This document shows positions 9,751 to 61,718 of a stretch of DNA of 64,000 bases, in pieces (the first letter of the stretch is position 1; the number at the start of each line of letters is the position of its first letter). Source of the stretch: Pseudophaeobacter flagellatus (GTDB lineage Bacteria; Pseudomonadota; Alphaproteobacteria; Rhodobacterales; Rhodobacteraceae); NCBI RefSeq assembly GCF_021228235.1, contig NZ_JAJQRG010000011.1, forward strand, positions 1 to 64,000, given 5' to 3'. Made by a program: the position numbers and the translations under genes. The notes beneath the pieces were generated by a model that saw only the letters and a program-made list of their open reading frames with translations, was not told where the DNA came from and ran no database searches.

Positions 9751-11433
9751 TTACTTCAAGATGCCAGGCAAGCGCAGATTGTGCACGCGGGCGCATTCCT
9801 TGGCCTCTTCATAACCCGCATCAGCATGGCGCATGACGCCCGAAGCCGGGTCGTTCCACAGCACACGCTCCAGCCGCTTGGCCGCCGCATCGGTTCCATC
9901 GGCGCAGATCACCACACCGGAATGCTGGGAAAAGCCCATGCCAACGCCGCCACCATGGTGCAGCGACACCCAGGTCGCGCCCGAAGCCGTATTGGTCAGG
10001 GCATTTAGCAGCGGCCAATCCGAAACCGCGTCAGAACCATCCATCATGGCTTCGGTTTCGCGGTTGGGCGAGGCCACCGAACCAGAATCCAAATGGTCAC
10101 GGCCAATGACAACCGGCGCGCTCAGCTCGCCGTTCTTGACCATCTCATTAAAGGCAAGCCCGGCCCGATGGCGATCGCCCAGACCAATCCAGCAGATCCG
10201 CGCCGGCAGGCCCTGAAAGGCAATGCGCTCATCCGCCATGTCCAGCCAGTTGTGTAGATGGGTGTTCTCGGGGAACAGCTCTTTCATCTTGGCGTCAGTC
10301 TTGCGAATGTCTTCGGGATCACCAGACAGCGCCACCCAGCGGAAGGGACCAATACCCCGACAGAACAGTGGCCGGATATAGGCGGGGACAAAGCCGGGGA
10401 AATCAAAGGCGTTTTCCAGCCCTTCTTCCAGCGCCATTTGGCGAATGTTATTGCCATAGTCCACGGTGGGAACACCCATGGCATGGAATTTGCACATCGC
10501 ATCCACCTGCACGCGCATGCTGGCGCGGGCGGCTTTTTCGACGGCTTTCTTGTCGGTCTCGCGCTTTTCCTTCCACTCGCCCATGGTCCAGCCCTGCGGC
10601 AGATAACCGTTCACCGGGTCGTGGGCCGAGGTCTGATCGGTGACGATATCGGGGCGGATGCCCCCTGCTTCGGCGCGGGCCAGCAGCTCTGGGAAGATAT
10701 CGGCGGCATTGCCCAGCAGGCCAACGGATTTAGCCTCGCCTGCCTTGGTCCAGCGCTCGATCATTGCCAGCGCTTCGTCCAGGGTTTCAGCCTTTTCATC
10801 CAGGTAGCGGGTGCGCAGGCGGAAATCGAGGCTATCGGGATTGCATTCCACAGCCAAACAGCAAGCGCCGGCCATGACAGCCGCCAAAGGCTGAGCACCG
10901 CCCATGCCGCCAAGGCCACCGGTCAGAACCCATTTGCCTGTCAGATCGCCATCATAGTGCTGGCGCCCAGCTTCGGCGAAGGTTTCATAGGTACCCTGCA
11001 CGATGCCCTGGGTTCCGATGTAGATCCACGAGCCTGCGGTCATCTGACCGTACATCATCAGACCTTTTTTATCGAGCTCGTTGAAGTGATCCCAGTTGGC
11101 CCAATGCGGCACCAGGTTGGAGTTGGCAATCAGTACCCGCGGTGCATCCGCATGGGTTTTAACGATGGCGACCGGCTTGCCAGATTGCACCAGCAGGGTT
11201 TCATCGTCTTCCAGGTCTTTCAAGCTGTCAACGATGAGGTCGAAATCATCCCAGGTACGCGCGGCGCGGCCGATACCACCATAGACCACCAGCTCATGCG
11301 GGTTTTCGGCCACATCCGGGTGCAGGTTGTTCATCAGCATCCGCATCGCCGCTTCGGTCTGCCAGCTTTTCGCGGTGATCTCGGATCCTGTGGGCGGATA
11401 GATATCACGGGTATTCTTGCGGGGATCGGTCAT
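9751..11433 (-). CDS. hutU: Urocanate hydratase
   Basis: 560 residues, the normal length for HutU, which hydrates urocanate to imidazolonepropionate using tightly bound NAD+. The NAD-binding glycine-rich motif [11 protein letters not shown] is clear, as are the conserved [13 protein letters not shown] and TDQTSAHDP stretches. It is the last gene of hutI-hutH-hutG-hutU; its ATG overlaps the hutG TGA by four bases, so translation is probably coupled. Confidence 0.97.
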
Positions 11434-39300: not shown

Positions 39301-39943
39301 GGCGTTTTCGGTATTTTTTCAACAGGCCCAAAAAGCCCAGCCAGGCCGCGTTATCCGCTTCGGCATCGCTTTCCTGGGTGGTGTAGCGCCCGGCGGTGTC
39401 GATCAGAACCGCCTCATTGGTGAACCACCAATCGCAGTTTCGCGTGCCGCCAACGCCGCCAATGGCGGCTTTTCCCAGCTTATCCGCCAGCGGGAACTGC
39501 AGACCAGAGTTGACAATCGCCGTGGTCTTCCCCGCCCCTGGTGGACCAATCATCACATACCAAGGCAGCACATTCAGATGCCTGCGGCCATTCTTGGATT
39601 TACGCAGCGCTGTCATCGCCTGTTTGAACTTGCTCCGCAGCTCGCCCAGTTCTTCCAGCATGACGTCATCGTCATCCACAGTTTCAACCGCTTCGACCAT
39701 GTCATCGGCCATCTTGCGATCCCGCCGCCGCCGCAGCCAGAACACCAAGGTGATGATCATCAGCACCACCACCCAGATGACAGAAATAGCAATTACCCGC
39801 GCCTGAATACTGTCAAAGGGGCGCCAATCGACACTGCCAAGATAGGGGGCAAAAAACCAGACACAGGCCGACAGAACGATGGCCAACAAGACAAGCGCTG
39901 AATAAAGCGAGCGCAACAACGGCAGAAGATAACGGCGGATCAT
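36371..39943 (-). CDS. tssM: TssM (IcmF), T6SS inner-membrane complex
   Basis: 1190 residues, normal size. Two membrane segments near the N-terminus (about 10-30 and 47-68), a cytoplasmic NTPase-like domain with Walker A GPPGAGKTT (about 133-141), a third membrane segment near 445-465, and a long periplasmic C-terminal region. With TssL it forms the trans-envelope complex. The intact Walker A motif suggests nucleotide binding. The ends overlap tssL (four bases) and tagF (one base). Confidence 0.95.
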   Translation of the reverse strand: MIRRYLLPLLRSLYSALVLLAIVLSACVWFFAPYLGSVDWRPFDSIQARVIAISVIWVVVLMIITLVFWLRRRRDRKMADDMVEAVETVDDDDVMLEELGELRSKFKQAMTALRKSKNGRRHLNVLPWYVMIGPPGAGKTTAIVNSGLQFPLADKLGKAAIGGVGGTRNCDWWFTNEAVLIDTAGRYTTQESDAEADNAAWLGFLGLLKKYRKRQPINGALVAISLSDLSLQDEVTQQAHAQAVRRRLSELRERLGVRFPVYVLFTKADLIAGFQEYFDSLGKEEREQVWGFTLPLGKTKKDPAAIEHFDAEFAALLGQMNAQLLEKMQTETDHQRRALVAGFPGQVAAMRSVAKAFLNEVFQDNRYEQRQMLRGIYFTSGTQEGTPIDRLMLGMAQTFGIGRQAIGTGQGVGRSYFLTRLFEGVLFPEAGLVSADDKVERRYRWTRRLAIAATILVAAAMGGLWVNSYLKNADFIGQAEQQVSAYQEAAGTLPPSPVGDTDLVPVAAALNLLRDMPGNPVLSDPEPDRAMTYGLYQGEVIGTQTAQTYRAALNQRFLPRLLVRLEEQIAGNVNNPDVLYEALKIYLMLGLQGPMNPDLIKEWMRLDWELVAYPGAARTELRSDLMDHLSALLSQPMEEIGLNGPLVEQVQNILSEMPLAQRVYNGIINSNQATSLPKWRLTEIGGPSVKRALVRSSGKPLNDGVEGIFTYEGFNNIFLPEAVSVSERVQNEAWVLGQRAGEGQSEAALLALSRDVLDLYYNDYISRYDQILGDVDIVPLESLSHAVEVTNVLSGPTSPIMNILTEISRETRLAEDRSTLDSEALNEGVSQVVGIETRSGLSIQGQILLEALVSSAANAPGETAKPPGAYVQERFQWLHDLVARPEGQPSRLDDLMGSLQLVYQELNKMSFSGVTSGESGQALLQFQQVASRIDGPIQRWATQVSTGSSGITSEGTRASINARWQSAVLPFCQKALDNRYPFNRRARADVAMVDFAKLFAPGGLIDGFFDENLLKYVDTRSRPWTWKRVNDVDLGISQAVLQQMQYAAEIRDAFFNSSANPAVQFQITPKALDPKAKEVLLEIDGSKIAYNHRMGQPTPVAVNWPGSVGLARITLLPQRRGNENTLSRDGPWAWFRLLDAAEVRRTNVSDRRRVNFRVGGRLALFELQSGSVVNPFALPAMAKFSCPKSM

Positions 39944-41367
39944 TGGTCGACCTCCTGCACCAGCAAGATTTCAATACGGCGATTTTTGGCGCGGCCCTCG
40001 CGGGTGCCATTATCGGCAATCGGCTCTTTTTCGGCCCGCCCCTCGGCGGATAGTCTGCCAGGATCGTCCAGCACCCGCGACATGCCCTTCATCACCGATT
40101 TGGCCCGCGCCAGCGACAGCGCCATATTGGACGGAAACCGCGACGATCGGATCGGGATATTATCCGAATGCCCCGCGACGATGACCCGGCCCTTTTCGTC
40201 GTTCAATGCCTCGGCCACCCGCGTTACTGAGGTCTGGAAGCCATCGCTCAGCTGATCCGAGCCGGATCCAAACATCCCCGACCCCGCAAGCCGAATGATC
40301 AGGGTATTGCCCTTTTGAAAGACCGAAACGATGCCCTCATCAATTTCAGGCCCCAGGAAATCGGCCACTTTTGCCACCTGTTCCTCCAGTGTCTGTATCG
40401 GCGGCGGCGGGGGGGGCGGTGGGGCACGACGTTCCAGTTGTGCAGGCGGCCCGGCATCAACAATGGTCAACTTTCCGACCACATTTTCGGTCTTGTTGGA
40501 CAGAGCCCAGCTTAGCCCCAGAAACTGCGCCAGCAGCAGGGCCGCAGTCACCCCCAGCGCGATCCAGACAAGGCGCCAGGCAGACAACACTTTGAAGGGC
40601 TTGATCACCCCTTCCCAATGGGGCGACAAATCGCGTTCTATCGGCCCACGCTGATTGCGCAGGATCCGCGCCAGAGCAGCCCGAATTTGCAAGTGTTTTT
40701 CTGCGCCGCCCTGCTCAATCCGCAACCGTCCCTCAAAGCCAAGCGACATGCACATGTATAGGAACTCCAGCATATCGATATTGGCGCCGGGTTCTTTTTC
40801 CAGCCGGGCCAGCAGATCGTAGAACCGGTCACCGCCAACAGTTTCGCGATGAAAGGTGCCCACCATGGATTGTAACCCCCAGCTGGATTGTCCGCCCCAG
40901 GGCGTGTTGAGCACCACATCATCCAGGGTCGCACAAAGCGCATAGCGGGCGACCTTTACAGTCTGCGCCGCGATCCCAGCCTGCAGGGCCCGGTTTTCAA
41001 AAGCGCGCACCTCGGCAACCACGTTTTTGCGCAGCCCGTCCGGGTCCATATGCTGGGCGCGATTGCGGATACGGCTGATCAGGGCAAACAGCGCCGAGGC
41101 ACAGGCCGCCAGGGGATTCATCCCCGTCAGCGCCATCTGGGCTGGTGTTCCGGCACCGGATTGACCCATCGGAGAGGCCTGAGCCGCCGGGGTCGCAGCC
41201 TGAGGCACACCAATGGCCGCGTCAGACGCGGCACCTGCAGCCGGGGCCGCGTCAGGCTGCGGCGTTATGGGCTGCGGCGACGCAGAGCGGCGACCACCGG
41301 GATTAGGGCGGATCACCGTCTTGTCGGTGTCCCCCGGTTCCGCAAAGGGATCGTCAAAATCGCCCAT
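39940..41367 (-). CDS. tssL: TssL (DotU) with C-terminal OmpA peptidoglycan-binding domain
   Basis: 475 residues. A low-complexity Ala/Pro/Gln-rich N-terminus (about 20-75) is followed by the DotU/TssL cytoplasmic domain (about 80-265), a membrane segment (about 267-290), a Pro-rich spacer (PPPPPPPP near 320), and an OmpA-like domain (about 345-470; GHSDNIPIR, NRRIEILLV). This is the extended, wall-binding TssL type, which may lessen the need for a separate TagL. Confidence 0.94.
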   Translation of the reverse strand: MGDFDDPFAEPGDTDKTVIRPNPGGRRSASPQPITPQPDAAPAAGAASDAAIGVPQAATPAAQASPMGQSGAGTPAQMALTGMNPLAACASALFALISRIRNRAQHMDPDGLRKNVVAEVRAFENRALQAGIAAQTVKVARYALCATLDDVVLNTPWGGQSSWGLQSMVGTFHRETVGGDRFYDLLARLEKEPGANIDMLEFLYMCMSLGFEGRLRIEQGGAEKHLQIRAALARILRNQRGPIERDLSPHWEGVIKPFKVLSAWRLVWIALGVTAALLLAQFLGLSWALSNKTENVVGKLTIVDAGPPAQLERRAPPPPPPPPIQTLEEQVAKVADFLGPEIDEGIVSVFQKGNTLIIRLAGSGMFGSGSDQLSDGFQTSVTRVAEALNDEKGRVIVAGHSDNIPIRSSRFPSNMALSLARAKSVMKGMSRVLDDPGRLSAEGRAEKEPIADNGTREGRAKNRRIEILLVQEVDQ

Positions 41368-44571: not shown

Positions 44572-45195
44572 TTAGATCTCCTTCTCGTTACCCGAACCAG
44601 CAGCCCCCGTCTTGGCGCCGCCCTGCCCATTACCACCGCGCGCAATATCCAGCCCGCGTGCGACCAAAACACGGCCGTGTTCTTCAAACTTATCAGACAA
44701 TTGGCTCAATGCTACCATATTCATGGCAAAGGAGGCTGCTTCTGACGCGCCCGCGGGCGCGGGATATTGGTTCAAATCCCCCGGCCCCAGCGTGCCCGGC
44801 GCATAGAGTACCGCAAGGGCGCAGTTCACCGTGTCATCATCGACATAGGCATGATCCAGCGTCAGCCGCGCCGCATCGCGGTTTTCTTCGCTGGGGTCCC
44901 GCACCCAGGCCTCTGAACAGCTAAGCGAAGCCGGATCCTTATCCGAACGCGGCCCGATGTAATCCCGCGCTGCCAGACAGGCCCACCAGACCCGTTCACG
45001 CGGCGGCAGCAAGACACCCAGCAAACGCAGCAAATCCACCAGCGCCTCCTTTTGATAGAGTTCTTGCAGCACCATCGCCGCCGGGGCCGTGGGCGGGGCC
45101 TGCAGCGGGGTCTTTAACAAGACATTGGCATGCGACAGCAGTTTGGCCACGGGATCAGGCGGAAGCTTGACCAGATTTTCAAAATTTTCCGACAT
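44572..45195 (-). CDS. Unknown protein between VgrG and PAAR genes (DUF6931-like)
   Basis: 207 residues; the fold is not recognisable from motifs, though similar proteins appear in alphaproteobacterial T6SS loci (DUF6931 as I recall; uncertain). The core is helical with a conserved-looking ERVWWACLAARDY segment (about 66-78). The C-terminal 25 residues are Gly/Asn-rich and probably disordered. No signal peptide and no toxin motif. Its place between vgrG and PAAR suggests an adaptor/chaperone or cargo protein for the spike. Confidence 0.65.
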   Translation of the reverse strand: MSENFENLVKLPPDPVAKLLSHANVLLKTPLQAPPTAPAAMVLQELYQKEALVDLLRLLGVLLPPRERVWWACLAARDYIGPRSDKDPASLSCSEAWVRDPSEENRDAARLTLDHAYVDDDTVNCALAVLYAPGTLGPGDLNQYPAPAGASEAASFAMNMVALSQLSDKFEEHGRVLVARGLDIARGGNGQGGAKTGAAGSGNEKEI

Positions 45196-45205
45196 ATTCC
45201 CCACC

Positions 45206-47413: not shown

Positions 47414-50400
47414 TCATAAATCCGCCAGCAGCGCCGCCAATTCGGCGTCCATTTCGCCACTGTCAGCCGTATCACCATCCCCTGCAGCCCCGCTTTCGGC
47501 GTCAAAACCAGCCAAGAGCGCATCCAGATCATCCAGATCGCTGTCGCCGCCAACCGAGGCGGCCGTGCTGGCGGTGCCCTCAAGATCCAGATCATCCAGT
47601 CCCAAATCATCTAACCCCGGATCTGCGGCGGCATCTGTTGGGGCCGGGGCTGGTTCTGGCCCCGTCTCTGACGCGCTATCTGGCTGCGGTTCCTGCGCTG
47701 CCGGACCGGTCTTTTCACGCGGGTCGGCAGGCGACGGTGCTGGTGCCGGAACCCCGCTCCAGGGGCCAAGAATCTCTGACCCGGCAACAGAGAAAAACGA
47801 GGTCAGGCGCAACTCATCGCGGCCCTTGACCGCGCTGAGCGCCATAACGCCCCGGTCGTTGGCCATGGCGATTTTGTCCAGATCAATATTGCGTTCGGTA
47901 CAGGGCAACGCCACCTGATCGCCAAAGCGATCTGTCACCGTATGATAGGGCATACCCCCCAACGACATGATCGAACCCAGCTGCATCGCCGCGCCATTTT
48001 CCTTAAAAGAGCGCGCCAACAGGATTGTCACCAGTACAACCGGATTACCCCAGAGCATACCGCGCAGCCCTTCGCTCTGTGTAAACTCTTCGAAGGCAAA
48101 ACTGTCCAGCGGATCGCTCTTGGCACCATAGGGGCGGCGCAGCAGAAACCGCGGGCTGACTAGGCCCAGATGTCCGGCCTCTGGCATCTGTTGCAACGTG
48201 TCCCAGGCCCGGGCCACCAACGGCGCACGGTCCTGCTTGGCCATCGTCAAGAACCCCGGCGATAGGCTGGTGAAAAAGGGCGCATCCACATGCGCTGCCA
48301 CCCGCGCGATGCGGCCCAGCAGCTCGGCATGGGGCGGGGTTTCTTCAAACCCATAGAGCCCAATCAACGCCGAATAGCCGCCGCGCCCGGTTTCAGGATC
48401 CAGCGGCCCTTCGGTTAGCAAACGGGTCAGGCCGCTTTGCGAAAGATCATCCGCCGTCGCCAGATCTGCGGCCAGCTCCTCGGCGGAAACATCGTAAAGC
48501 ACGACTTCCAGCGTATCGTCCACCTCGACCGAGCGGGCGATCAGATCCAACGAGCGCCACTGGGCCTCAACCGATTGAAATTCAGGGTGGTGCAGCACCA
48601 GACGCATCGCATCCGACAGGGCCGCATCCACGGCCTGCTGCATCGCCGCGACATCCGGGTTGGGCAGGGCGCGAATATGCGGCCCGACGATCCGCGCCAA
48701 AAGCGCATCAATCGCCGAAGCCTCCCGCAGACTGTTGCCCTGATCCCCAATCAGCTGCTGAAAGGCGCTCAGCCGTCGATCGGCCGGTACCGCCTGCCCG
48801 CCAGACGCGCGCCTAGGCACCCGAACGGGCGTGCCAAAGCGTTTGGCCCAATCGGCCAGACTGCGGCTGGCATGGTCAACGGTAACCCCCGATTGCAACT
48901 GCTTGCGCAGACTGACCAGCTCTGAAAACAGGGCCACGTTTTCAAACAATTCATCCGGGTGCAGATCGTCAAACTCCGAGAGTTTGACCAAGATAGCCTC
49001 TTGCCCCGCACCCTCCGCCCCAAGCGGCAGGACCAGCTCGCAAGCAAACCGCTTTATCACCTCTTCCAGGGTATCCGGATCCAGAACAATGGGCGGGCGG
49101 GCCGCTAGGGCGGGACCGGTCTCTACCTGCCCGCGCGCAGCACGGCCCGAAAAATCCCCGAACAGGGCGATACGAAAGCGTTTGCGCTGCAACTGCTGCG
49201 ATGACGGACGCTGCGCAGTGATCGTGCCATAGGCAAATTCCGGCTCGCTTATGACCGGTTTTGCATCCTGTTCTGGCACTGCCATCGCAGGCTCTGCCTC
49301 CAGATCCCCAAGCAGATCATCCAGATCCGATAAATCCGCCGCCAGCGTTGCAGCCTCTGGCGCGCCGGGGCCTTCCGCAATGTCGCCCAACAGATCGTCG
49401 AGGCCAGGCTCCGCGCTGTCCGCTATCGCTGGATCAGATGGCGCATCAAGATCGGCAAGCAGCTCCGATAGCTCGTCCTCGCTTGGGGCATTAACCAGCG
49501 AGGTCGCCTCGGTCTCAGTGGCAAGGCCCGAGAGCACGGCGTCCGGATCCTCGACCTCGACGTTTTCTTCTGCATCAGGCTCTAACCCGGACAATATGTC
49601 GCCCAAATCAGCCGCATGCGCGGTATCCGTTTCGGCAGTGGTCTCCACAAGGTCGCCCAACAGGCCATCGAGGTCGAGATCCGCGTTTTCCGCTGTCGCA
49701 GGATCAGATGGCGCATCCAGATCGGCAAGCAGCTCCGATAACTCGTCCTCGCTTGGGGCATTAACCAGCGGGGTCGCCTCGGCTTTAGCGACAAGGCCCG
49801 AGAGCACGGCATCCGGATCCTCGACCTCGACGTTCTCTTCTACAACAGGCTCTAACCCGGACAATATATCGTCCAAATCAGCCGCATCCGAGGTGTCTGT
49901 TTCAACCGGGGTCTCCGCAAGATCTGCAAGCAGTTCTCCCAGGTCCGGGTTGTTATCTGCCGCAGCGCCCGCGTGGTCCTGCAGATCGAGATCCCCCAGA
50001 ATGTCGGCAAGCGCCGCGTCTTCGGAGGCAGAAAAATCCGCCTCGGGCGTCAGACTTGCAACATCGGACAGAATGTCAGCAACCTCTGGTCCGGTTTCTT
50101 GCTCTGCTTCCTTGTCACTCAAACTCTCAAGAATATCGCCCAGCTCAGGGGTCGCTTCTGCAACCTCTGCCGGGGCATGCGTGACCAGATCCCCCAAGAG
50201 CTGCGAAAGATCCTCTTCTGCCGGGTCACCTGCGCCACCCTCTGCTGGGCGTTCCTGCGCCGCAAGCTCTTTCAGGATATCCTCGGTTGGCTCTCCGTCT
50301 TGCTCCACAGGCGCATCCAGACTGTCCAGCGCCTGCGCCAGGCTATCTTCGCTTGTATCCCCCCCCGCAGCATCCTCAGCGCCAAGCGCGCCGAGATCTT

Positions 50401-51172
50401 GCAAGACCTCATCGACCTCGCCCTCCGTCGCTTGTGGATCGGATGGGGCAGAGGCCGCCAGATCATCCAGTATGGCCGCATGTGCCGGGGTGCTTTGCTC
50501 CGGTTCGCTGATTGTCGCTCTGGCCAGATCCCGCAGCACATCAGAACTGTCAGCAGCAGCCGACACCTCTGCCGGTTCAATGTTGCGCAATGCGGCAAGC
50601 ACCTCCGCGCTTTGGTCCTCTGCCGCCTTGGGCTGCGCAAACCCACGCAGGCTGTTCAAGGCATTGTCCTGATCAGTCGCGCCCGCGCTGTCGCCAGCCG
50701 CCAGAGCCGAAAGCAGGGCCGGGTCCTGCAGGATATGTTCAATCAGACCCTCGGCACCGGCTTTGCCATCCATATAGGCCATCAAGGTCCGCAACTGTTG
50801 CCGTGCCTCTAGTAGCGGGCGCAGGGCGTCCACCTTTGAAGCAATTGCACCGGGAGTAAAATCGCTCATACTTTCAAAGGTAAGATCTATGTCCAGATTG
50901 CCCTCGCCGGTCAGCGTATTGGGTACCCGAAAGGCCGCCCGTGGTGCCAGGGCCTTCATCCGGTTGTCAAAACTATCAACATCAATCTCGAGAAACTTGC
51001 GGTCCTCGACGCTAGGCTGCGATGTGGTACTTTTACCCAGAAGGTCGCTCATCACGCCCATAACAAAGGGCAGCTGCACCTTCTTTTCAGCGCCATATAG
51101 TTCGACATCATATTCGATCTGCACCCGTGGCGCCCGGTTGCGGGCAATAAATTTCTGTGAACTATCCGCCAT
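47414..51172 (-). CDS. Giant TssB-TssC-like sheath fusion with acidic repeat linker
   Basis: 1252 residues. Residues 1-160 are a TssB (VipA) domain, differing from the separate TssB at 61200-61718 at only one of the first 40 positions. About 165-650 is a very acidic linker with many DxLLxDL-type motifs and a tandem 90-residue repeat. About 660-780 is a second, divergent TssB/TssC-N-like segment (RIALFGDFSGR), and about 810-1140 resembles the TssC N-terminal domain (SPRFLLRRPYGAKSDP matches MPRFLGRMPYGSKTDP in TssC). The C-terminal sheath domain of TssC is missing, replaced by an acidic tail ending ELAALLADL. Strong GGAGG before the ATG. Role unknown: an alternative sheath cap, initiator or assembly scaffold is possible. 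Confidence 0.85.
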   Translation of the reverse strand: MADSSQKFIARNRAPRVQIEYDVELYGAEKKVQLPFVMGVMSDLLGKSTTSQPSVEDRKFLEIDVDSFDNRMKALAPRAAFRVPNTLTGEGNLDIDLTFESMSDFTPGAIASKVDALRPLLEARQQLRTLMAYMDGKAGAEGLIEHILQDPALLSALAAGDSAGATDQDNALNSLRGFAQPKAAEDQSAEVLAALRNIEPAEVSAAADSSDVLRDLARATISEPEQSTPAHAAILDDLAASAPSDPQATEGEVDEVLQDLGALGAEDAAGGDTSEDSLAQALDSLDAPVEQDGEPTEDILKELAAQERPAEGGAGDPAEEDLSQLLGDLVTHAPAEVAEATPELGDILESLSDKEAEQETGPEVADILSDVASLTPEADFSASEDAALADILGDLDLQDHAGAAADNNPDLGELLADLAETPVETDTSDAADLDDILSGLEPVVEENVEVEDPDAVLSGLVAKAEATPLVNAPSEDELSELLADLDAPSDPATAENADLDLDGLLGDLVETTAETDTAHAADLGDILSGLEPDAEENVEVEDPDAVLSGLATETEATSLVNAPSEDELSELLADLDAPSDPAIADSAEPGLDDLLGDIAEGPGAPEAATLAADLSDLDDLLGDLEAEPAMAVPEQDAKPVISEPEFAYGTITAQRPSSQQLQRKRFRIALFGDFSGRAARGQVETGPALAARPPIVLDPDTLEEVIKRFACELVLPLGAEGAGQEAILVKLSEFDDLHPDELFENVALFSELVSLRKQLQSGVTVDHASRSLADWAKRFGTPVRVPRRASGGQAVPADRRLSAFQQLIGDQGNSLREASAIDALLARIVGPHIRALPNPDVAAMQQAVDAALSDAMRLVLHHPEFQSVEAQWRSLDLIARSVEVDDTLEVVLYDVSAEELAADLATADDLSQSGLTRLLTEGPLDPETGRGGYSALIGLYGFEETPPHAELLGRIARVAAHVDAPFFTSLSPGFLTMAKQDRAPLVARAWDTLQQMPEAGHLGLVSPRFLLRRPYGAKSDPLDSFAFEEFTQSEGLRGMLWGNPVVLVTILLARSFKENGAAMQLGSIMSLGGMPYHTVTDRFGDQVALPCTERNIDLDKIAMANDRGVMALSAVKGRDELRLTSFFSVAGSEILGPWSGVPAPAPSPADPREKTGPAAQEPQPDSASETGPEPAPAPTDAAADPGLDDLGLDDLDLEGTASTAASVGGDSDLDDLDALLAGFDAESGAAGDGDTADSGEMDAELAALLADL
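49383..49652. repeat. 270-bp tandem repeat, unit 1 (inside the fusion gene)
   Basis: First copy of a direct tandem duplication exactly 90 codons long, in the acidic linker of the fusion gene (about residues 507-597). It is closely similar to the adjoining unit at 49653-49922, including an almost unchanged stretch around CTCGTCCTCGCTTGGGGCAT. The reading frame is kept. Confidence 0.9.
49653..49922. repeat. 270-bp tandem repeat, unit 2 (inside the fusion gene)
   Basis: Second copy, directly abutting unit 1 (about residues 417-507 of the protein). Differences are mostly single substitutions and not indels, so the duplication appears fairly recent. The segment could expand or contract by slippage or recombination. 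Confidence 0.9.
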
Positions 51173-52031
51173 TGTCGCCTCCTTTCAGCTCAGCGACTTC
51201 ACGACGTAGGGCCTTCAGCTCGGCGTGCAGCTCCATCACATGGGCATCAACCACATCGGTTTCCTGACGCACCAATTCGCGCAGCTGTTCAAATTCGGCC
51301 TCGGCCTCGGCCTCCACTGCGGTCTGCATGGTATTGACCAAGAGACCGATAAAGAGATTCAGCACCGAGAAAGCAGTGATCACGATAAAAGGCACAAAGA
51401 AGGACCAGGCCATGGGGTAAACCTCCATCACCGGGCGGACGATGCCCATCGACCAGCTCTCCAACGTCATGATCTGGAACAGCGAATAAAGCGACCGCCC
51501 AAGGGTGCCAAACCAGACATCAAAGGCCGCGCCATACATCAGCGTTGCCATCACCCCAAAGACATAAAAGACAATCGAGATCATCACGATCACCGCGCCC
51601 ATGCCCGGCAACGCATCAAGCAGCGCCTGCACCACCTTTCGCATCTGCGGGATCACCGACAAAAGCCGCAGCGCCCGGATGACCCGCAGCCCACGCAGGG
51701 CCGACAGCCCCTGTTTGTCGGGCAACAGGCCAACGCTGACCACCAAGAGATCAAAGATATTCCAGGCCGAGGCAAAGAATTTGAGCCGATAGGCAAACAG
51801 TTTAAGCGCCAGCTCGGCCACAAAAATGGTAAGCACCATGCTATCGATCACGCCGAGCAACCCACCGATATGACTGTTCACCACATGAGAAGTCCCAAGC
51901 CCAAGGGTCACCGCATTAAAGATGATGATCCCCAGAATGGCATTGGTCACGACCGGGCGTTCCACAAAGATGCGGGCCCGATCCTGTAGGGTCAGTTGGG
52001 TGTCGGCGCTCTGATGCACGAAGGACTCCAT
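51162..52031 (-). CDS. Voltage-gated sodium channel (NaChBac/NavBac type)
   Basis: 289 residues, one six-TM ion-channel domain. S1 begins near residue 27; S4 (about 111-132) carries Arg113, 116, 119 and 122 at three-residue spacing. The selectivity filter TLESWSM (189-195) is the bacterial sodium-channel filter. S6 is about 212-238, and a C-terminal coiled coil (about 262-284) should hold the tetramer. Its last 11 bases overlap the fusion gene, and clpV ends 71 bp upstream on the same strand. The ribosome site is weak. Roseobacters are known to carry NavBac channels; finding one inside a T6SS operon is the unusual part. Confidence 0.9.
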   Translation of the reverse strand: MESFVHQSADTQLTLQDRARIFVERPVVTNAILGIIIFNAVTLGLGTSHVVNSHIGGLLGVIDSMVLTIFVAELALKLFAYRLKFFASAWNIFDLLVVSVGLLPDKQGLSALRGLRVIRALRLLSVIPQMRKVVQALLDALPGMGAVIVMISIVFYVFGVMATLMYGAAFDVWFGTLGRSLYSLFQIMTLESWSMGIVRPVMEVYPMAWSFFVPFIVITAFSVLNLFIGLLVNTMQTAVEAEAEAEFEQLRELVRQETDVVDAHVMELHAELKALRREVAELKGGDNGG

Positions 52032-52102: not shown

Positions 52103-54826
52103 TCAGTCAAAATTGTATGAAAATGCCCCCTCGTTCACATCGATGGCCACCGTCGAGACCTGCTCTCCCACCATCAGGCGGCGCAGGAATTCGTTGGAAA
52201 TATCCGGCAGCATGGAATTGGTCACAATCGTGTCGATCATCCGACCACCGCTTTCCAGCTCCTGGCACTGGGCGACGATCTTGTCGACAACCGCATCGGT
52301 GTAGGAAAACGGCACACCGTGGGCCTCTTCCACCCGTTTCTTGATGCGCCCCAGTTGCAGTTTGGTGATCTCGCCAATCATATCTGGGGTAAGCGGATAA
52401 TAGGGAATGGTCACCAGACGCCCCAAAAGCGCCGCCGGAAAGATCTTCAGCAGCGGATCGCGTAGCGCCTTGGCGATGCCTTCCGGGGCGGGCATCAGGT
52501 CTGGATCAGAACACATATCCATAATCATGTCTGATCCCGCGTTAGAGGTAAGCAAGATCAGAGTATTCTTGAAATCAATCACCCGCCCTTCGCCATCCTC
52601 CATCACGCCCTTGTCAAAGACCTGAAAAAAGATCTCATGCACATCCGGGTGGGCCTTTTCGACCTCATCCAGCAGCACCACGGAATAGGGCTTGCGCCGC
52701 ACCGCCTCGGTCAGTACGCCGCCTTCGCCATAGCCGACATATCCGGGCGGTGCGCCCTTCAGACTGCTAACGGTATGGGCCTCTTGGTATTCTGACATAT
52801 TGATGGTGATGACATTCTGTTCCCCCCCATAGAGAACCTCGGCCAGGGCCAGGGCCGTTTCGGTCTTGCCAACGCCCGAGGTCCCGGCGAGTAGAAAAAC
52901 CCCGATGGGTTTGTTGGGATTGTCCAGCCCGGCGCGACTGGTCTGGATCCGTTTGGCGATCATCTGCATCGCGTGATCCTGACCGATCACCCGCTTAGCA
53001 AGATGTTCTTCGAGGTGCAGGATGGTGTCGATTTCATCCTTGACCATGCGGCCAACCGGGATGCCAGTCCAGTCGCCCACCACGCTGGCAATCGCCTGCT
53101 GGTCGACAATCGGCAAGATCAGGGCGGAATCACCCTGCAGCACTTCCAATTCGCTATTCTTACCCTTGAGCTGCTGCATCAGGGCGGCGCGCTCTTCCTC
53201 GGTTAGCGGGCTATTCGATGTGCCCTCGGCCGCCTCTTCCCCAGCATCTGCGGCATCATCCACGGGCGCGGCCCCCTCTCGAAGCTTGGCGCGCAGGTCG
53301 AGGATCTCCTGGACCACCGCTTTTTCATTGTCCCAACGGATGGTCAGAGCGGCGAGGCGCTCTTCCTCGCGGGCCTTTGCATCCGCTACGGCCAGGCGTC
53401 GCTCTGCCACCTCATAGCCGGCGGTTTCATCGCGGCTGATGATCTCCAGCTCGGTGGTCAGGGCCTCGATCCGGCGCTGACTGTCGTCAACCTCTGCTGG
53501 AACCGCGTGTTGGCTGACGGCAACGCGGGCACAGGCAGTATCCAGCAGACTTACCGATTTATCCGGCAGTTGCCGCGCCGGAATATAGCGGGCCGACAGG
53601 CTGACGGCAGCCTCAATACCCTCGTCCAGAATCTGCACCCGGTGGTGCCCTTCCAGCATCGAAGCAATGCCCCGCATCATCAGTATCGCCTTTGGCACCG
53701 AGGGTTCGTCGATTTTTACCACCTGAAAGCGGCGAGTCAGAGCCGGGTCTTTCTCAATATATTTCTTGTATTCCGCCCAAGTGGTTGCACCGATAGTACG
53801 CAGGGTGCCACGGGCCAGGGCCGGTTTCAGCAGGTTGGCCGCATCGCCAGTGCCTGCCGCGCCGCCGGCCCCCACCAGCGTATGGGTTTCATCGACAAAC
53901 ATCACGATAGGCTCCGGACTGGCCTGAACTTCATCAATCACCTGACGCAGCCGGTTTTCGAATTCCCCCTTCATCGAAGCCCCAGCCTGCAACAGCCCGA
54001 TATCCAGCACCAAGAGCCGCACATTCTGCAAGGCCGGTGGCACATCTCCGCGCGCAATCCGCAGGGCAAAACCTTCGACCACTGCCGTCTTACCCACCCC
54101 GGCCTCTCCAGTAAGGATGGGGTTGTTCTGGCGTCGCCGCATCAGGATATCGACGATCTGGCGGATCTCTTCATCGCGCCCCACAATCGGGTCGATCTCG
54201 CCCGCGCGGGCCTGTTCCGTCAGATCAGTGCAAAACTGCGCCAGCGCCTCTCCCTTGCCCATGGCACCGGGGGCCATAGCGGCAGAGGTCTCGCCGGGTT
54301 CGGCCCCGCCACCGGTGACCTTGCTGCCATCCTGGGCCGACATCCCAGCCTCGGGGGAGCCATCGGTGGCTGCAGCAAAGTTATCGGCCAGATCATCGGC
54401 GCCAATCCGCGCCAGTTCTGGCGAAATCGAGGTGAGAATATTGCGCAACGCGGGTGTCTTCAGCATCCCCAACAGCAGATAGCCACTGCGCACCTGGCTG
54501 GCGGAAAACAGCAACGAGCCCCAGACCCAGCCGCGTTCCATCGCATCCATCAAATGATCGCTCAGATCCGAAATCGCCGAGGCACCGCGCGGCAACATGT
54601 CCAGCGCGCGGGTCATTTCGCTGGAGATTTTACCAGTATCGAGATCGTAATGTGCGATAATTCGATGCAGATCGCTATCCGGCTGGGCCAAGAGCTGATG
54701 CATCCAATGCACCAGTTCCACATAGGGATTGCCGCGCATCTTGCAGAATACGGTTGCTCCCTCTACCGCCTGATAGCCCAGTTTATTGAGCTTCCCAAAT
54801 AGCGCCACACGGCTGATCTCGGTCAT
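52103..54826 (-). CDS. clpV: ClpV (TssH), T6SS sheath-recycling AAA+ ATPase
   Basis: 907 residues. N-terminal Clp-N domain, two AAA+ modules with Walker [10 protein letters not shown] (about 242-250) and GTSGVGKTE (about 640-648), Walker [10 protein letters not shown] and [10 protein letters not shown], and a middle coiled-coil domain with an acidic insert near 525-540. ClpV disassembles the contracted TssB/TssC sheath. Normal length. Confidence 0.95.
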
Positions 54827-57732: not shown

Positions 57733-58230
57733 TCAGAGCCCCCGTTCCATTTTGACTTCTCCGGTGGTCACATCGACCTTGCTGCGCAGGTACAATTCCA
57801 GCGGCAGCGGCTGCGCCCACATGTCGGCGCGGATATCCAGCCCAATGGTCATGCCTGCCGCCTCCACATCGCCAATCAACTGCACATCCACCGTGCCTTC
57901 GATAATGCGGGGTTCAAAACTGGTGATGGCCTGTTCAATCGCGCGGCGGATCCTTTCGGCCTTTTCGGTGGTCGAGAACTCGCCCGTTACTTCGCTCAGC
58001 CCATAGTTCAATACGGAACCCGCCACCGCTGGGTAGCGGTCGCCATCAATCTGACGTCCGGCATTTTGGGTGTTGAGCAGCCAGGACAGATCGCGTTGAA
58101 TGATTTCGCGCAGCCGGTTCAGATCAATCACCCGCGCATCGCGGCTTTCCTTGCGATCCCTCGGTGCGTTGTCCGTCAATCGATCCAACAGCGAAGGTTG
58201 CAGGCGTTCGGCAAGCATCTTGTCAGCCAT
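57733..58230 (-). CDS. tssE: TssE, gp25-like baseplate protein
   Basis: 165 residues from ATG 58230 (MADKMLAERLQPSLLDRL). The gp25-like core includes NYGL and FEPRI motifs, as in other TssE proteins that start sheath polymerisation. The start lies within the tagJ 3' end and the stop is two bases before tssF. Confidence 0.93.
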   Translation of the reverse strand: MADKMLAERLQPSLLDRLTDNAPRDRKESRDARVIDLNRLREIIQRDLSWLLNTQNAGRQIDGDRYPAVAGSVLNYGLSEVTGEFSTTEKAERIRRAIEQAITSFEPRIIEGTVDVQLIGDVEAAGMTIGLDIRADMWAQPLPLELYLRSKVDVTTGEVKMERGL

Positions 58231-59062
58231 CGCTGCCGCCCAAAGCATCACTGTTGTCCAGCGCATCATCAGCACCGGCGTCGCCGATCTGCAGCTGGCG
58301 GATATCCATCAGGGCGAAATCCTCGTCACCGATGGTCAAAAGCCGCTGTCCCAGACCAATATAGGCCCCGCCACCGGCCTCTTGCCAATGGGTCGTATGC
58401 GCTAGTTGGGCCGCTGGATCCGCCGTTTCACTGCCAGGATAGCGGGTTGGGATCAGCACCGCCAAGGCACCTTCATTGGCCAGGGTCAACGTGCCTGCCA
58501 TCCAAACGGTATCGCGCAGATCGCTGGGTTCATCGATTTCAAGGCTCTGGATCTGGGCAAAGGGCAGCCAGAAATAGCGCCCATTCAGGATCACCTCCAG
58601 CACCGGGCCAAGGCGCATATCGGCATCGGCAATCCAGTCAAAGGCTGTGCCATTCACTGTTCCCGCCGTTGTCGGGGCCGCCGCATAGGCAGCCTCGCGC
58701 AGGGCCTGCGCCTGATCCACATGGCCCTGGGCCAGTTGTTTCTGCGCCTCGATCAACTGCGCCAGCCAGGGGTCTGGCTCGCCCAGGATCAAAGGGTCTT
58801 TTTCGCCCTTGAACACCTTTTCGCGGTAAACCTCACATAAGATGGCCTCTCGGTAGGCCTGCGCCATGACAGTTGCCCCGGCATCCAGTTCGGCGCTCAG
58901 CCGCAGCTGCGCCACCGCCCGCTTCCAGTCTCCCATTATGCAGAGCAGCTGAAACAGAAAGATCCGCAGCTTGGCATTGGAAGGATCCGCGCGCACCTGG
59001 GCCTGCAAGGAGGCCAGGGCCTGTTCCGGATCACCAGCCCGCAAATGCGCTTCAGGGGTCAT
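58223..59062 (-). CDS. tagJ: TagJ/ImpE, T6SS accessory protein
   Basis: 279 residues. A TPR-like N-terminus (about 1-60, AGDPEQALASLQAQVRADPS) and an ImpE/SciE domain (RYFWLPFAQIQSLEI at about 187-201). TagJ binds the TssB N-terminus and helps ClpV-mediated sheath recycling in some species. The extra TssB copy in the fusion protein could therefore be a further client (inference). Confidence 0.88.
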   Translation of the reverse strand: MTPEAHLRAGDPEQALASLQAQVRADPSNAKLRIFLFQLLCIMGDWKRAVAQLRLSAELDAGATVMAQAYREAILCEVYREKVFKGEKDPLILGEPDPWLAQLIEAQKQLAQGHVDQAQALREAAYAAAPTTAGTVNGTAFDWIADADMRLGPVLEVILNGRYFWLPFAQIQSLEIDEPSDLRDTVWMAGTLTLANEGALAVLIPTRYPGSETADPAAQLAHTTHWQEAGGGAYIGLGQRLLTIGDEDFALMDIRQLQIGDAGADDALDNSDALGGSDG

Positions 59063-59133
59063 GGGCAATACTCCGCCATGTCAAATACACATAAAGCCCC
59101 CGGACGTGCAGCCACGCCCGAGGGAAGGGCAAA

Positions 59134-59693: not shown

Positions 59694-61190
59694 TCAGCCT
59701 CCCTTTTCCGAGGGCAATTTTGACACCAGCCGAAGCGAGACCGACAGGCCTTCCAGCTGGTAGTGCGGGCGCAGGAAGAATTTTGAGCTGTAATAACCCG
59801 GGTTGCCCTCGACCTCTTCGACCACCACTTCGGCCGCCGCCAGAGGTTTGCGCGCCTTTTCGTTCTCGGATGAAATATCGGCGTTGAAATCAACGTAATT
59901 GTTGATCCAGTTCTGCAGCCAGGATTCCATGTCCTGACGGCTTTTGAACGACCCAACCTTGTCGCGCACCATGCATTTCAGGTAATGCGCAAAGCGGCAG
60001 GTGGCAAAAAGATAGGGCAAACGCGCGCCAAGGTTGGCGTTGGCGGTTGCATCCGGGTCGTCATATTCGGTGGGCTTGTGCAGAGATTGCGCCCCCATGA
60101 ATGTTGCCACATCAGTATTCTTGCGGTGCAAGAGCGGCATCATGCCGTTCTTGGCCAGCTCGGCTTCGCGCCGGTCATCAATGGCAATCTCGGTGGGGCA
60201 TTTCTGATCCACCCCGCCATCAGTGGTCGGGAAAGTATGCGAGGGCAGCTCTTCCAGGGTGCCACCGCTTTCAACCCCGCGAATGCGCGAGCACCAGCCA
60301 TAGGATTTGAACGAGCGGGTGATATTGGTGGCCATGCCATAGGCCGCATTCACCCAGGCATATTTTTCGCTATCGGCCCCTGTTGTATCTTCCTCAAAGG
60401 CGAATTCATCCACCGGATCTGTTTTGGAGCCATAGGGCATCCGGCCCAGAAACCGCGGCATTGCCAACCCGACATATTTGGAATCCTCGCTTTCGCGCAA
60501 CGACCGCCAGGCGGCATATTCCGGGGTCTGAAAGATTTTGGTCAGATCGCGCGGATTGGACAGTTCCGACCAGCTGTCCATCTGAAACAGCGACGGCTTG
60601 GCACCAGTGATCAGCGGCGCATGGGCGGCGGCGGCAATTTTCGACATCTCACCCAGCAGTTCAATATCCGGTGGCGAATGGTCAAAATGGAAATCAGCCA
60701 CCAAAGAGCCATAGGGTTCGCCCCCCAACTGGCTGAATTCTTCGGTATAGAGTTTCTTGAAAATCGGTGACTGGTCCCAGGCGGTGCCTTTGAATTTCTT
60801 CAAAGTCTTGCCCAGTTCCTTTTTGGTGATCGGGATCACCCGGATTTTCAGCATCTCGTCGGTTTCGGTATTGTTGACGAGATAATGCAACCCGCGCCAG
60901 GCGCTTTCAAGCTGCTGGAATTCTTCGTTATGCAGGATCAGGTTGACCTGCTCTGTCAGCTTTTTGTCGATCTCGGCCACAATGCTTTCGATCGACCGCA
61001 GCGCATCATCCGAAATCAGCCCGGCATTGGCCAAGGCCTGTTCTGCCAGGGTTTTGACCGCGCTTTCCACCGCCGTTTTGGCCTGGTCGGACTTGGGGCG
61101 AAATTCCTTTTGCAACAGACTTGCAAATTCACTGGAACCAAAGGCGCTTTCATCCGGGGCGACCTCGGTCTGGAGTTGTTCTTCTGCCAT
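59694..61190 (-). CDS. tssC: TssC (VipB), sheath large subunit
   Basis: 498 residues, full length with both the N-terminal domain and the C-terminal gp18-like core (FFLRPHYQLEGLSVSLRLVS). MPRFLGRMPYGSKTDP and FAFEED motifs are conserved. Assembles with TssB into the contractile sheath. Ribosome site GGAGGTAGAT is near ideal. Ten bases separate it from tssB. Confidence 0.96.
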   Translation of the reverse strand: MAEEQLQTEVAPDESAFGSSEFASLLQKEFRPKSDQAKTAVESAVKTLAEQALANAGLISDDALRSIESIVAEIDKKLTEQVNLILHNEEFQQLESAWRGLHYLVNNTETDEMLKIRVIPITKKELGKTLKKFKGTAWDQSPIFKKLYTEEFSQLGGEPYGSLVADFHFDHSPPDIELLGEMSKIAAAAHAPLITGAKPSLFQMDSWSELSNPRDLTKIFQTPEYAAWRSLRESEDSKYVGLAMPRFLGRMPYGSKTDPVDEFAFEEDTTGADSEKYAWVNAAYGMATNITRSFKSYGWCSRIRGVESGGTLEELPSHTFPTTDGGVDQKCPTEIAIDDRREAELAKNGMMPLLHRKNTDVATFMGAQSLHKPTEYDDPDATANANLGARLPYLFATCRFAHYLKCMVRDKVGSFKSRQDMESWLQNWINNYVDFNADISSENEKARKPLAAAEVVVEEVEGNPGYYSSKFFLRPHYQLEGLSVSLRLVSKLPSEKGG

Positions 61191-61199
61191 ATCTACCTC

Positions 61200-61718
61200 C
61201 TATTCCGTGTCGCCATCGGCGTCACCGCCGGGTTTGGGCTGGGCTGCCAGGGTCTTCAGCAGGCTGGGGTCCTGGATGATCTTGGTGATCAGGTCTTCGG
61301 CCCCGGTTTTGCCATCCATATAGGTCATCAGATTGCTCAGCTGGCTGCGCGCCTCCAACAGCTCTTTCAGCGGCGCCACCTTGGCGGCGATGGCTGCGGG
61401 CTTGAAATCATCCATACTTTCAAAGGTGATATCGACCGCCATATTGCCCTCACCTGTCAGGGTATTGGGCACGGTAAAGGCGGCGCGTGGTGCCATGGAT
61501 TTCATCCGGCTGTCAAAGTTATCGACGTCTATTTCCAGAAATTTGCGATCCGCGACGGAGGGTTGCTCGACCTCGGATTTGCCGGTGAGATCCGCTAAAA
61601 CCCCCATGACAAAGGGCAGCTGGACCTTCTTTTCGGCGCCATACAGTTCCACATCATATTCGATCTGCACCCGTGGCGCCCGATTACGGGCAATGAACTT
61701 TTGTGAACTTCCAGCCAT
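61200..61718 (-). CDS. tssB: TssB (VipA), sheath small subunit
   Basis: 172 residues, normal length. FIARNRAPRVQIEYDVELYG at the N-terminus and LPFVMGVLADL are typical of VipA. Partner of TssC; target of ClpV. Its DNA and protein are strikingly close to the first 160 codons of the fusion gene at 47414-51172. Confidence 0.96.
   Translation of the reverse strand: MAGSSQKFIARNRAPRVQIEYDVELYGAEKKVQLPFVMGVLADLTGKSEVEQPSVADRKFLEIDVDNFDSRMKSMAPRAAFTVPNTLTGEGNMAVDITFESMDDFKPAAIAAKVAPLKELLEARSQLSNLMTYMDGKTGAEDLITKIIQDPSLLKTLAAQPKPGGDADGDTE

Follow-up and report, generated by a model that had tools for sequence, protein, structure and literature searches.

The window, by which we mean the whole 64,000-nucleotide stretch of Pseudophaeobacter flagellatus contig NZ_JAJQRG010000011.1, contains a type VI secretion system (T6SS) cluster, encoding a contractile machine that injects toxins, in which one gene joins TssB- and TssC-type sheath domains in a single chain, beside separate copies of tssB and tssC. 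The preliminary description of this sequence had read the gene as a TssB-linker-TssC-like fusion of 1252 residues, and the open reading frame (ORF) is confirmed. Its features, with the evidence for each in parentheses, are as follows:

47414..51172, minus strand: tssCL-type fusion gene, 1252 amino acids, ATG start (ORF reading; same layout in relatives)
51178..51183, minus strand: AGGAGG, Shine-Dalgarno-like site of the fusion gene (sequence)
50699..51145, minus strand: TssB1, full TssB domain, residues 10-158 (PF05591, dN/dS, tree, near-fixed differences from TssB)
49253..50677, minus strand: acidic linker, residues 166-640 (composition; array of ~21-residue amphipathic repeats)
47753..49252, minus strand: conserved core, residues 641-1140, comprising TssB' and TssC' (alignment, Pfam, tree, model and fold match)
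48893..49177, minus strand: TssB', degenerate second TssB domain (PF05591, E 5.9e-7)
47789..48637, minus strand: TssC', VipB N-terminal domain, residues 846-1128 (PF05943)
47417..47752, minus strand: acidic C-terminal tail, residues 1141-1252 (composition)
47417..47452, minus strand: C-terminal motif MDAELAALLADL-COOH, residues 1241-1252 (kept in 43/43 alphaproteobacterial core ORFs examined)

The AGGAGG site sits 5 nt before the fusion ATG, within the end of an upstream channel gene.

As the preliminary description had proposed, the N terminus is a full TssB domain, matching PF05591 (VipA/TssB) at residues 10-158 (E 1.3e-61) and scoring above the TIGR03358 (TssB equivalog) cut-off (195.8 versus 97.25 bits; best stretch residues 6-159). 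The acidic stretch, put there at ~490 residues, corresponds to the linker of ~475 residues (27% D+E, 2% K+R), and the tail (residues 1131-1252) is similarly acidic (24% D+E, 2% K+R). A second sheath-like segment is present as described but is a degenerate TssB domain, also found by BLAST at residues 666-764 (26% identity, E 1e-6). The TssC' match to PF05943 (VipB N-domain) is strong (E 2.3e-42), and the fusion protein falls below the TIGR03355 (TssC equivalog) cut-off (136.9 versus 271.5 bits). PF18945 (VipB_2, gpW/gp25-like) was matched by Pfam in the TssC of the cluster and not in the fusion protein. The TssC N-domain stands as first described, and the missing part is more precisely the gp25-like C-terminal domain together with the C-terminal arm rather than a C-terminal sheath core. 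Genome-wide, there are three PF05591 matches (one in tssB and the others inside the fusion gene) and two PF05943 matches (tssC and the fusion gene). In the TssB' helix expected to bind TssC, the published spacing of Pro, +3, +7, and +10 is kept and hydrophobic in 28/28 rows, and position +14 is hydrophobic in only 16/28; in this comparison 4 of 37 TssB1 rows fell outside the search pattern and were left uncounted.

A contig scan of genomes identified 46 loci, 27 in Rhodobacterales and 19 in Gammaproteobacteria. TssB1 and the core lie within one ORF in 22 of the 27 Rhodobacterales loci, and the remaining five are frameshifted (L011), begin inside the gene (L016), or stop inside it (L024, L025, and L028). 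The L011 frameshift, at 10020-10200 in a draft of Pseudophaeobacter leonis, separates the linker from the core. The homologue search for a TssB-acidic linker-TssC-N layout that the preliminary description had suggested yielded 34 loci, namely that of the window and 33 others, with 32 distinct sequences (L083 equals L018, and L082 equals L022). Across seven pairs, dN/dS was 0.017-0.091 for TssB1 (six computable), 0.018-0.091 for the core (seven), 0.15-0.26 for the linker (four computable), and 0.08-0.17 for the tail (six computable), values that are rough because dS exceeds 1 in many pairs. Judged by these ratios, both ends of the fusion are under strong purifying selection. A decaying pseudogene, or a fusion created by sequencing or assembly error, could point to the single frameshifted draft relative in its favor; because there are 34 open copies (32 distinct) with strong purifying selection on both ends, this explanation is refuted and retains practically no probability. 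An internal start yielding the core alone was also considered and is not conserved, as only 7/34 loci have, no more than 35 residues from the core, an ATG with a Shine-Dalgarno-like site. The complete TssB1-linker-core form was not seen outside Alphaproteobacteria among the loci examined; the core alone was seen there.

The TssB'-TssC' half is found as a protein in its own right. Each of the 19 gammaproteobacterial loci contains one ORF of 495-527 amino acids that matches the core without TssB1 or an acidic tail. Rhodobacteraceae likewise have proteins without TssB1 (L072, 600 amino acids; L073, 622; L074, 636; L075, 742), and another is encoded on a Burkholderiales plasmid of Eleftheria terrae (L118), within an annotated T6SS cluster. 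Both PF05943 and PF05591 were matched in 28/28 rows of the core alignment, and VipB_2 was absent from 27/27 full-length proteins scanned (that of the window, 15 gammaproteobacterial ORFs, L074, L075, L077, and eight more). The VipB domain is followed by 11-22 residues in gamma-type cores versus 125-131 in full-length canonical TssC. A tree that compared 26 cores with 19 TssC proteins and 7 second TssC paralogs places the cores in one group with 100/100 support, with a tool warning that long branches meet at this group. On the basis of this tree, the core is a monophyletic family of its own, and the possibility that it is the second TssC paralog is ruled out. Because the L072 core nests among TssB1-bearing cores, TssB1 was probably lost in that lineage. 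The core of G317 groups with Microbulbifer.

Surveys of assembled genomes indicated how widely the core is distributed. Within the family, a sheath match was present in 45 of 198 genomes, and 19 of these 45 had a full-length core; TssB1 was seen in 13 of the 19, absent in 4, and undecidable at contig ends in 2. A phylum survey of 398 genomes, which scored at most three candidates per genome and so may miss some cores, gave 88 genomes with a match and 3 with a full core (that of the window included). In the order of G317, 10 of 194 genomes match the core at E 1e-80 or better. A canonical TssC match accompanies the core in 19/19 family genomes and 8/8 gammaproteobacterial genomes. In the gammaproteobacterial systems L093-L117, each of eight genomes carries no fewer than three TssC-like genes, namely canonical tssC, the second paralog that directly follows it, and the truncated core; G590 has a fourth TssC-like match. 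L030 and L077 are stand-alone cores with no T6SS gene recognized by BLAST in the adjoining DNA examined; TssC is present elsewhere in both genomes. The Eleftheria terrae plasmid NZ_CP106952.1 (L118/L120) carries four annotated hcp genes in the T6SS cluster that holds its core.

The preliminary description had supposed a sheath fold in residues 660-1140, and the AlphaFold model of the core agrees with it. The model, which covers the core, shows a sheath protomer that does not include the gp25-like C-terminal domain, and in VIA-align comparisons, on which this result rests, it matches solved contractile sheath proteins, with a sheath fold throughout the core. The sheath fold of the core is predicted with good confidence. 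In contractile tails, the gp25-like C-terminal domain accepts the arms of the next ring. In the T6SS sheath, as described in the relevant passages of PMC5813253, two strands tie each subunit to two subunits of the baseplate-nearer ring. Since the modeled core is without the gp25-like domain, its structure suggests that it would offer no platform for the next ring.

TssB1 has remained close to canonical TssB. Between 37 TssB1 and 17 TssB sequences, a count that omits one distant gammaproteobacterial TssB included in the TssB tree, there are three near-fixed differences, all conservative. The N-terminal arm of TssB1 is nearly identical to that of TssB, and the linker that follows the arm is equal in length. 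Within-group mean identity is 0.80 for TssB1 versus 0.88 for TssB, indicating greater divergence of TssB1. The origin of TssB1 takes three label changes in the tree, and 0% of 200 bootstrap trees have one, whereas the starred branches force only one. TssB-sfGFP is reported to assemble into sheaths, as far as the pertinent part of PMC3840085 describes it. Given this precedent, the few conservative differences, and the shared N-terminal arm, TssB1 probably enters the sheath.

Between the two ends, acidic amphipathic repeats of ~21 residues follow one another to form the linker. When hydrophobic autocorrelation was averaged over 34 linkers, 346-999 residues long, peaks appeared at lags 3 (0.22), 4 (0.13), 21 (0.16), and 42 (0.11), and the best lag in the 15-40 range is 20-24 in 26/34 linkers. 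We counted the motif hydrophobic-x-x-hydrophobic-hydrophobic against 300 shuffles and found 17 copies in the linker of the window versus a shuffle mean of ~4.9. The count exceeds the highest of the 300 shuffles in 20/34 linkers and the shuffle mean in 33/34, L026 being the sole linker that does not (5 versus 5.2). The protein ends in a short, apparently helix-like motif. Of the alphaproteobacterial core ORFs examined, 43 with 38 distinct ends when that of the window is counted, every one has, numbering from the C terminus, D/E at both -11 and -9, L at -8, A at -6, L/M at -5, and L at both -4 and -1. The strict pattern fails in 2 of the 38 distinct ends (L087 and L091), where the key positions hold. 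The Eleftheria core has the same tail motif with one residue added after it, and the motif is not present in the gammaproteobacterial cores.

The fusion gene is surrounded by vgrG and further T6SS genes, and family models confirmed the separate tssB and tssC that had been placed at 59694-61718. The neighbors that bear on the interpretation are as follows:

61200..61718, minus strand: canonical tssB (Pfam and TIGRFAM models)
59694..61190, minus strand: canonical tssC, with VipB_2 (Pfam and TIGRFAM models)
58223..59068, minus strand: tagJ/impE (PF07024)
52103..54826, minus strand: clpV/tssH (TIGR03345)
51162..52031, minus strand: bacterial voltage-gated sodium-channel-like gene, sharing 11 bp with the start of the fusion (PF00520; PDB matches)

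The window also encodes a TssL (DotU) with a C-terminal OmpA domain at 39940-41367 (minus strand) and a DUF6931 gene at 44572-45204 (minus strand), the latter adjoining vgrG in Rhodobacterales clusters that cover that region. An additional ORF of 302-411 amino acids lies between clpV and the channel in L073, L075, L078, L080, L081, L082, L084, L086, and L092 and is not present in the window; none of the three copies scanned (L073, L080, and L081) had a Pfam match.

The channel gene passes as a prokaryotic Nav-type channel, with an Ion_trans domain and a close match to solved channels across the pore. Its best PDB match is 5hvx_A (E 2.5e-74), which we take to be NavMs, with the stretch TLESWSMGIVRPVM, presumably the selectivity filter, identical; entries under the names NavAb and voltage-gated sodium channel are among the other matches. 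In all 24 Rhodobacterales loci of the contig scan with upstream DNA, a count that leaves out L013, L016, and L048 as beginning inside the fusion gene, the channel is the nearest recognized upstream gene. A T6SS-linked channel copy occurred in 16/19 core-bearing versus 1/26 core-less T6SS genomes of the family survey (Fisher p 2e-8, which ignores shared descent). T6SS-linked copies outside the genome of the window are 57-80% identical, and copies elsewhere are mostly about 45-57% identical. Nav-type channels are common family-wide, with some match in 131/198 genomes, and no match to the channel was found in the gammaproteobacterial loci within the DNA examined there. The one exception among the core-less genomes, G162 (L084, 11384-12493), has a T6SS and the channel with no core between the channel and vgrG, and so provides a natural strain for comparison. 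The linkage of channel and fusion could connect sheath firing with membrane potential; judged by title, none of the literature matches listed concerned a link between T6SS and membrane potential or a sodium channel.

These findings are consistent with a model in which the fusion protein acts as an accessory regulator associated with the sheath. Within the TssBC sheath, TssB1 would replace one TssB; the acidic repeat linker would then emerge on the outer face of the sheath and present the truncated TssB'-TssC' protomer, with TssB' and TssC' possibly paired within one chain, near the growing sheath. Once docked, a protomer without the gp25-like domain and the C-terminal arm could not be built upon and might limit or cap sheath growth at the baseplate-distal end, with the C-terminal motif and its linker copies perhaps docking on a partner. 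We tentatively favor such a growth-limiting or capping role for the TssB1-tethered protomer. The preliminary description had likewise considered entry at one end of the sheath, a tether, or a ClpV/TagJ bait; its interpretation holds in part. The anatomy, conservation, and predicted fold are established here; sheath insertion, a position at one end, an effect on growth, and a docking partner are what we infer. How sheath growth ends is not settled in every T6SS, and the protein composition of the distal end of the Vibrio cholerae sheath is reported as unclear in the portion of PMC5813253 that treats it. Because a single gene here ties a normal subunit to a natural protomer without a platform for the next ring, termination and capping can be tested directly.

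Several observations weigh against a capping role. TssB1 is missing from the otherwise similar proteins L072-L075 and L118, and the function must therefore extend beyond insertion into the sheath via TssB1. Of the 45 T6SS genomes of the family, 26 lack the core, and L084 retains the channel without it. Since the core is without the C-terminal arm and the N-terminal stretch of TssB' varies in length, docking in a normal lattice is doubtful, and the core, on its linker, could act at any nearby point and not just at the sheath end. Close behind capping, and also possible, is that the protein is a multivalent tether, in which TssB1 would be anchored in the sheath, the repeats and C-terminal motif would tie the sheath to a further component or strap along it, and the core would be an extra docking module that ends nothing. 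The ~21-residue mean period, the motif excess over every shuffle in 20 linkers, and the conservation of the tail motif in alphaproteobacterial cores and Eleftheria argue for it. BLAST of the Eleftheria plasmid stretches recovered, of the proteins of the cluster, only TssA, TssB, TssC, TssE, TssF, TssG, TssK, VgrG, and the core (Hcp is annotated), with TssB (70.7%) and TssC (69.4%) closest to those of the cluster, making the sheath itself a candidate partner of the tail and repeats. However, 14/34 linkers do not exceed the highest shuffle, and the part with the widest conservation is the truncated protomer, the gammaproteobacterial copies being without tail and linker.

It is less likely that the fusion serves as a ClpV or TagJ bait or adaptor that would recruit or occupy the disassembly ATPase, shielding or marking sheaths. 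TssB1 does retain the TssB N terminus, the core gene follows clpV in four gammaproteobacterial loci (L037, L038, L039, and L046), and the first TssC-type helix of the core resembles the TssC type of the host system: FQxLIG occurs in 13/13 Rhodobacteraceae core rows beside [DE]F-xx-LL in 7/7 TssC shown, and [MLI]L[DE] occurs in 13/15 gammaproteobacterial core rows (not L030 or L034) beside LL[DE]xA[IL] in 8/8 gammaproteobacterial TssC. ClpV-N binds LLDEII-type helices, and the LLDEII motif and TagJ are almost mutually exclusive, according to the sections of PMC4239648 on this interaction. However, the helix likeness covers two lineages only and the helices are short, and the same sections report that ClpV1 remains bound by Pseudomonas aeruginosa HsiC1 from which the initial 33 residues, EFASLL among them, are missing. 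Furthermore, the whole 784-kb core-bearing Eleftheria plasmid had no ClpV match (its chromosome was not searched), and the tail motif is not specially similar to a TssC helix, ranking 52 of 6308 windows, leaving mimicry of the EFASLL helix unsupported. We consider it improbable that TssCL is a plain variant that would co-polymerize over the full length of its own chain as a minor structural subunit: the predicted sheath fold throughout the core would suit this, but the missing VipB_2 and the constant presence of canonical TssC beside the core argue against it. An equally remote elaboration is a strap or ruler, with TssB1 as anchor, ~21-residue repeats lying on successive rings, and a truncated protomer with a hook-like C-terminal helix closing the end, so that linker length, which varies from 346 to 999 residues between species, would set or limit sheath length, with the sodium channel of the overlapping gene possibly acting as a gate.

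TssB1 is 77% identical to the TssB of its own cluster and, in contrast to canonical TssB (VipA/HsiB1), carries a C-terminal extension of more than 1000 residues. The core is 26% identical to canonical TssC (VipB/HsiC1) in the structural alignment with 5n8n_B; canonical TssC has the PF18945 domain and a C-terminal arm, whereas the core has neither. Single-chain sheath proteins of R-type pyocin, PVC, and phages likewise join small- and large-subunit parts in one chain, and structural alignments to them span about model residue 22 to 500. In rows such as 9qgl_4A, 9qgp_4A, 3j9r_0, 3j9q_A, and 6j0c_A, the aligned range stops at residue 258-291, a comparison of end domains that covers targets of length 350-385. 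The second TssC paralog of Microbulbifer-type clusters, to which we take the names ImpD/TssC40 to apply, is also an extra TssC-like gene in a T6SS cluster, but it falls outside the core clade and, in full-length members, continues for 122-134 residues beyond the VipB domain.

The closest counterpart is TssCL of the roseobacter T6SS, published in 2022 and belonging to the same protein family (PMC9515649). As presented in the passages of that paper that concern it, TssCL has a pair of VipA domains, the first close to TssB and the other at ~26%, and one VipB domain, lies in a cluster with complete tssB and tssC, is called a TssB-TssC fusion, is assigned no function, and was undetected outside Alphaproteobacteria. 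The protein of the window has this layout, with two PF05591 domains and one PF05943 domain in one chain and separate tssB and tssC in the cluster. Among the literature matches listed, TssCL with type VI secretion appeared only in PMC9515649, with no other report of the fusion. To that account our analysis adds that the core is a monophyletic family, some members of which stand alone on one Burkholderiales plasmid and in Gammaproteobacteria, and it describes the repeat array, the tail motif, the absence of the gp25-like domain, and the linkage to a channel gene.

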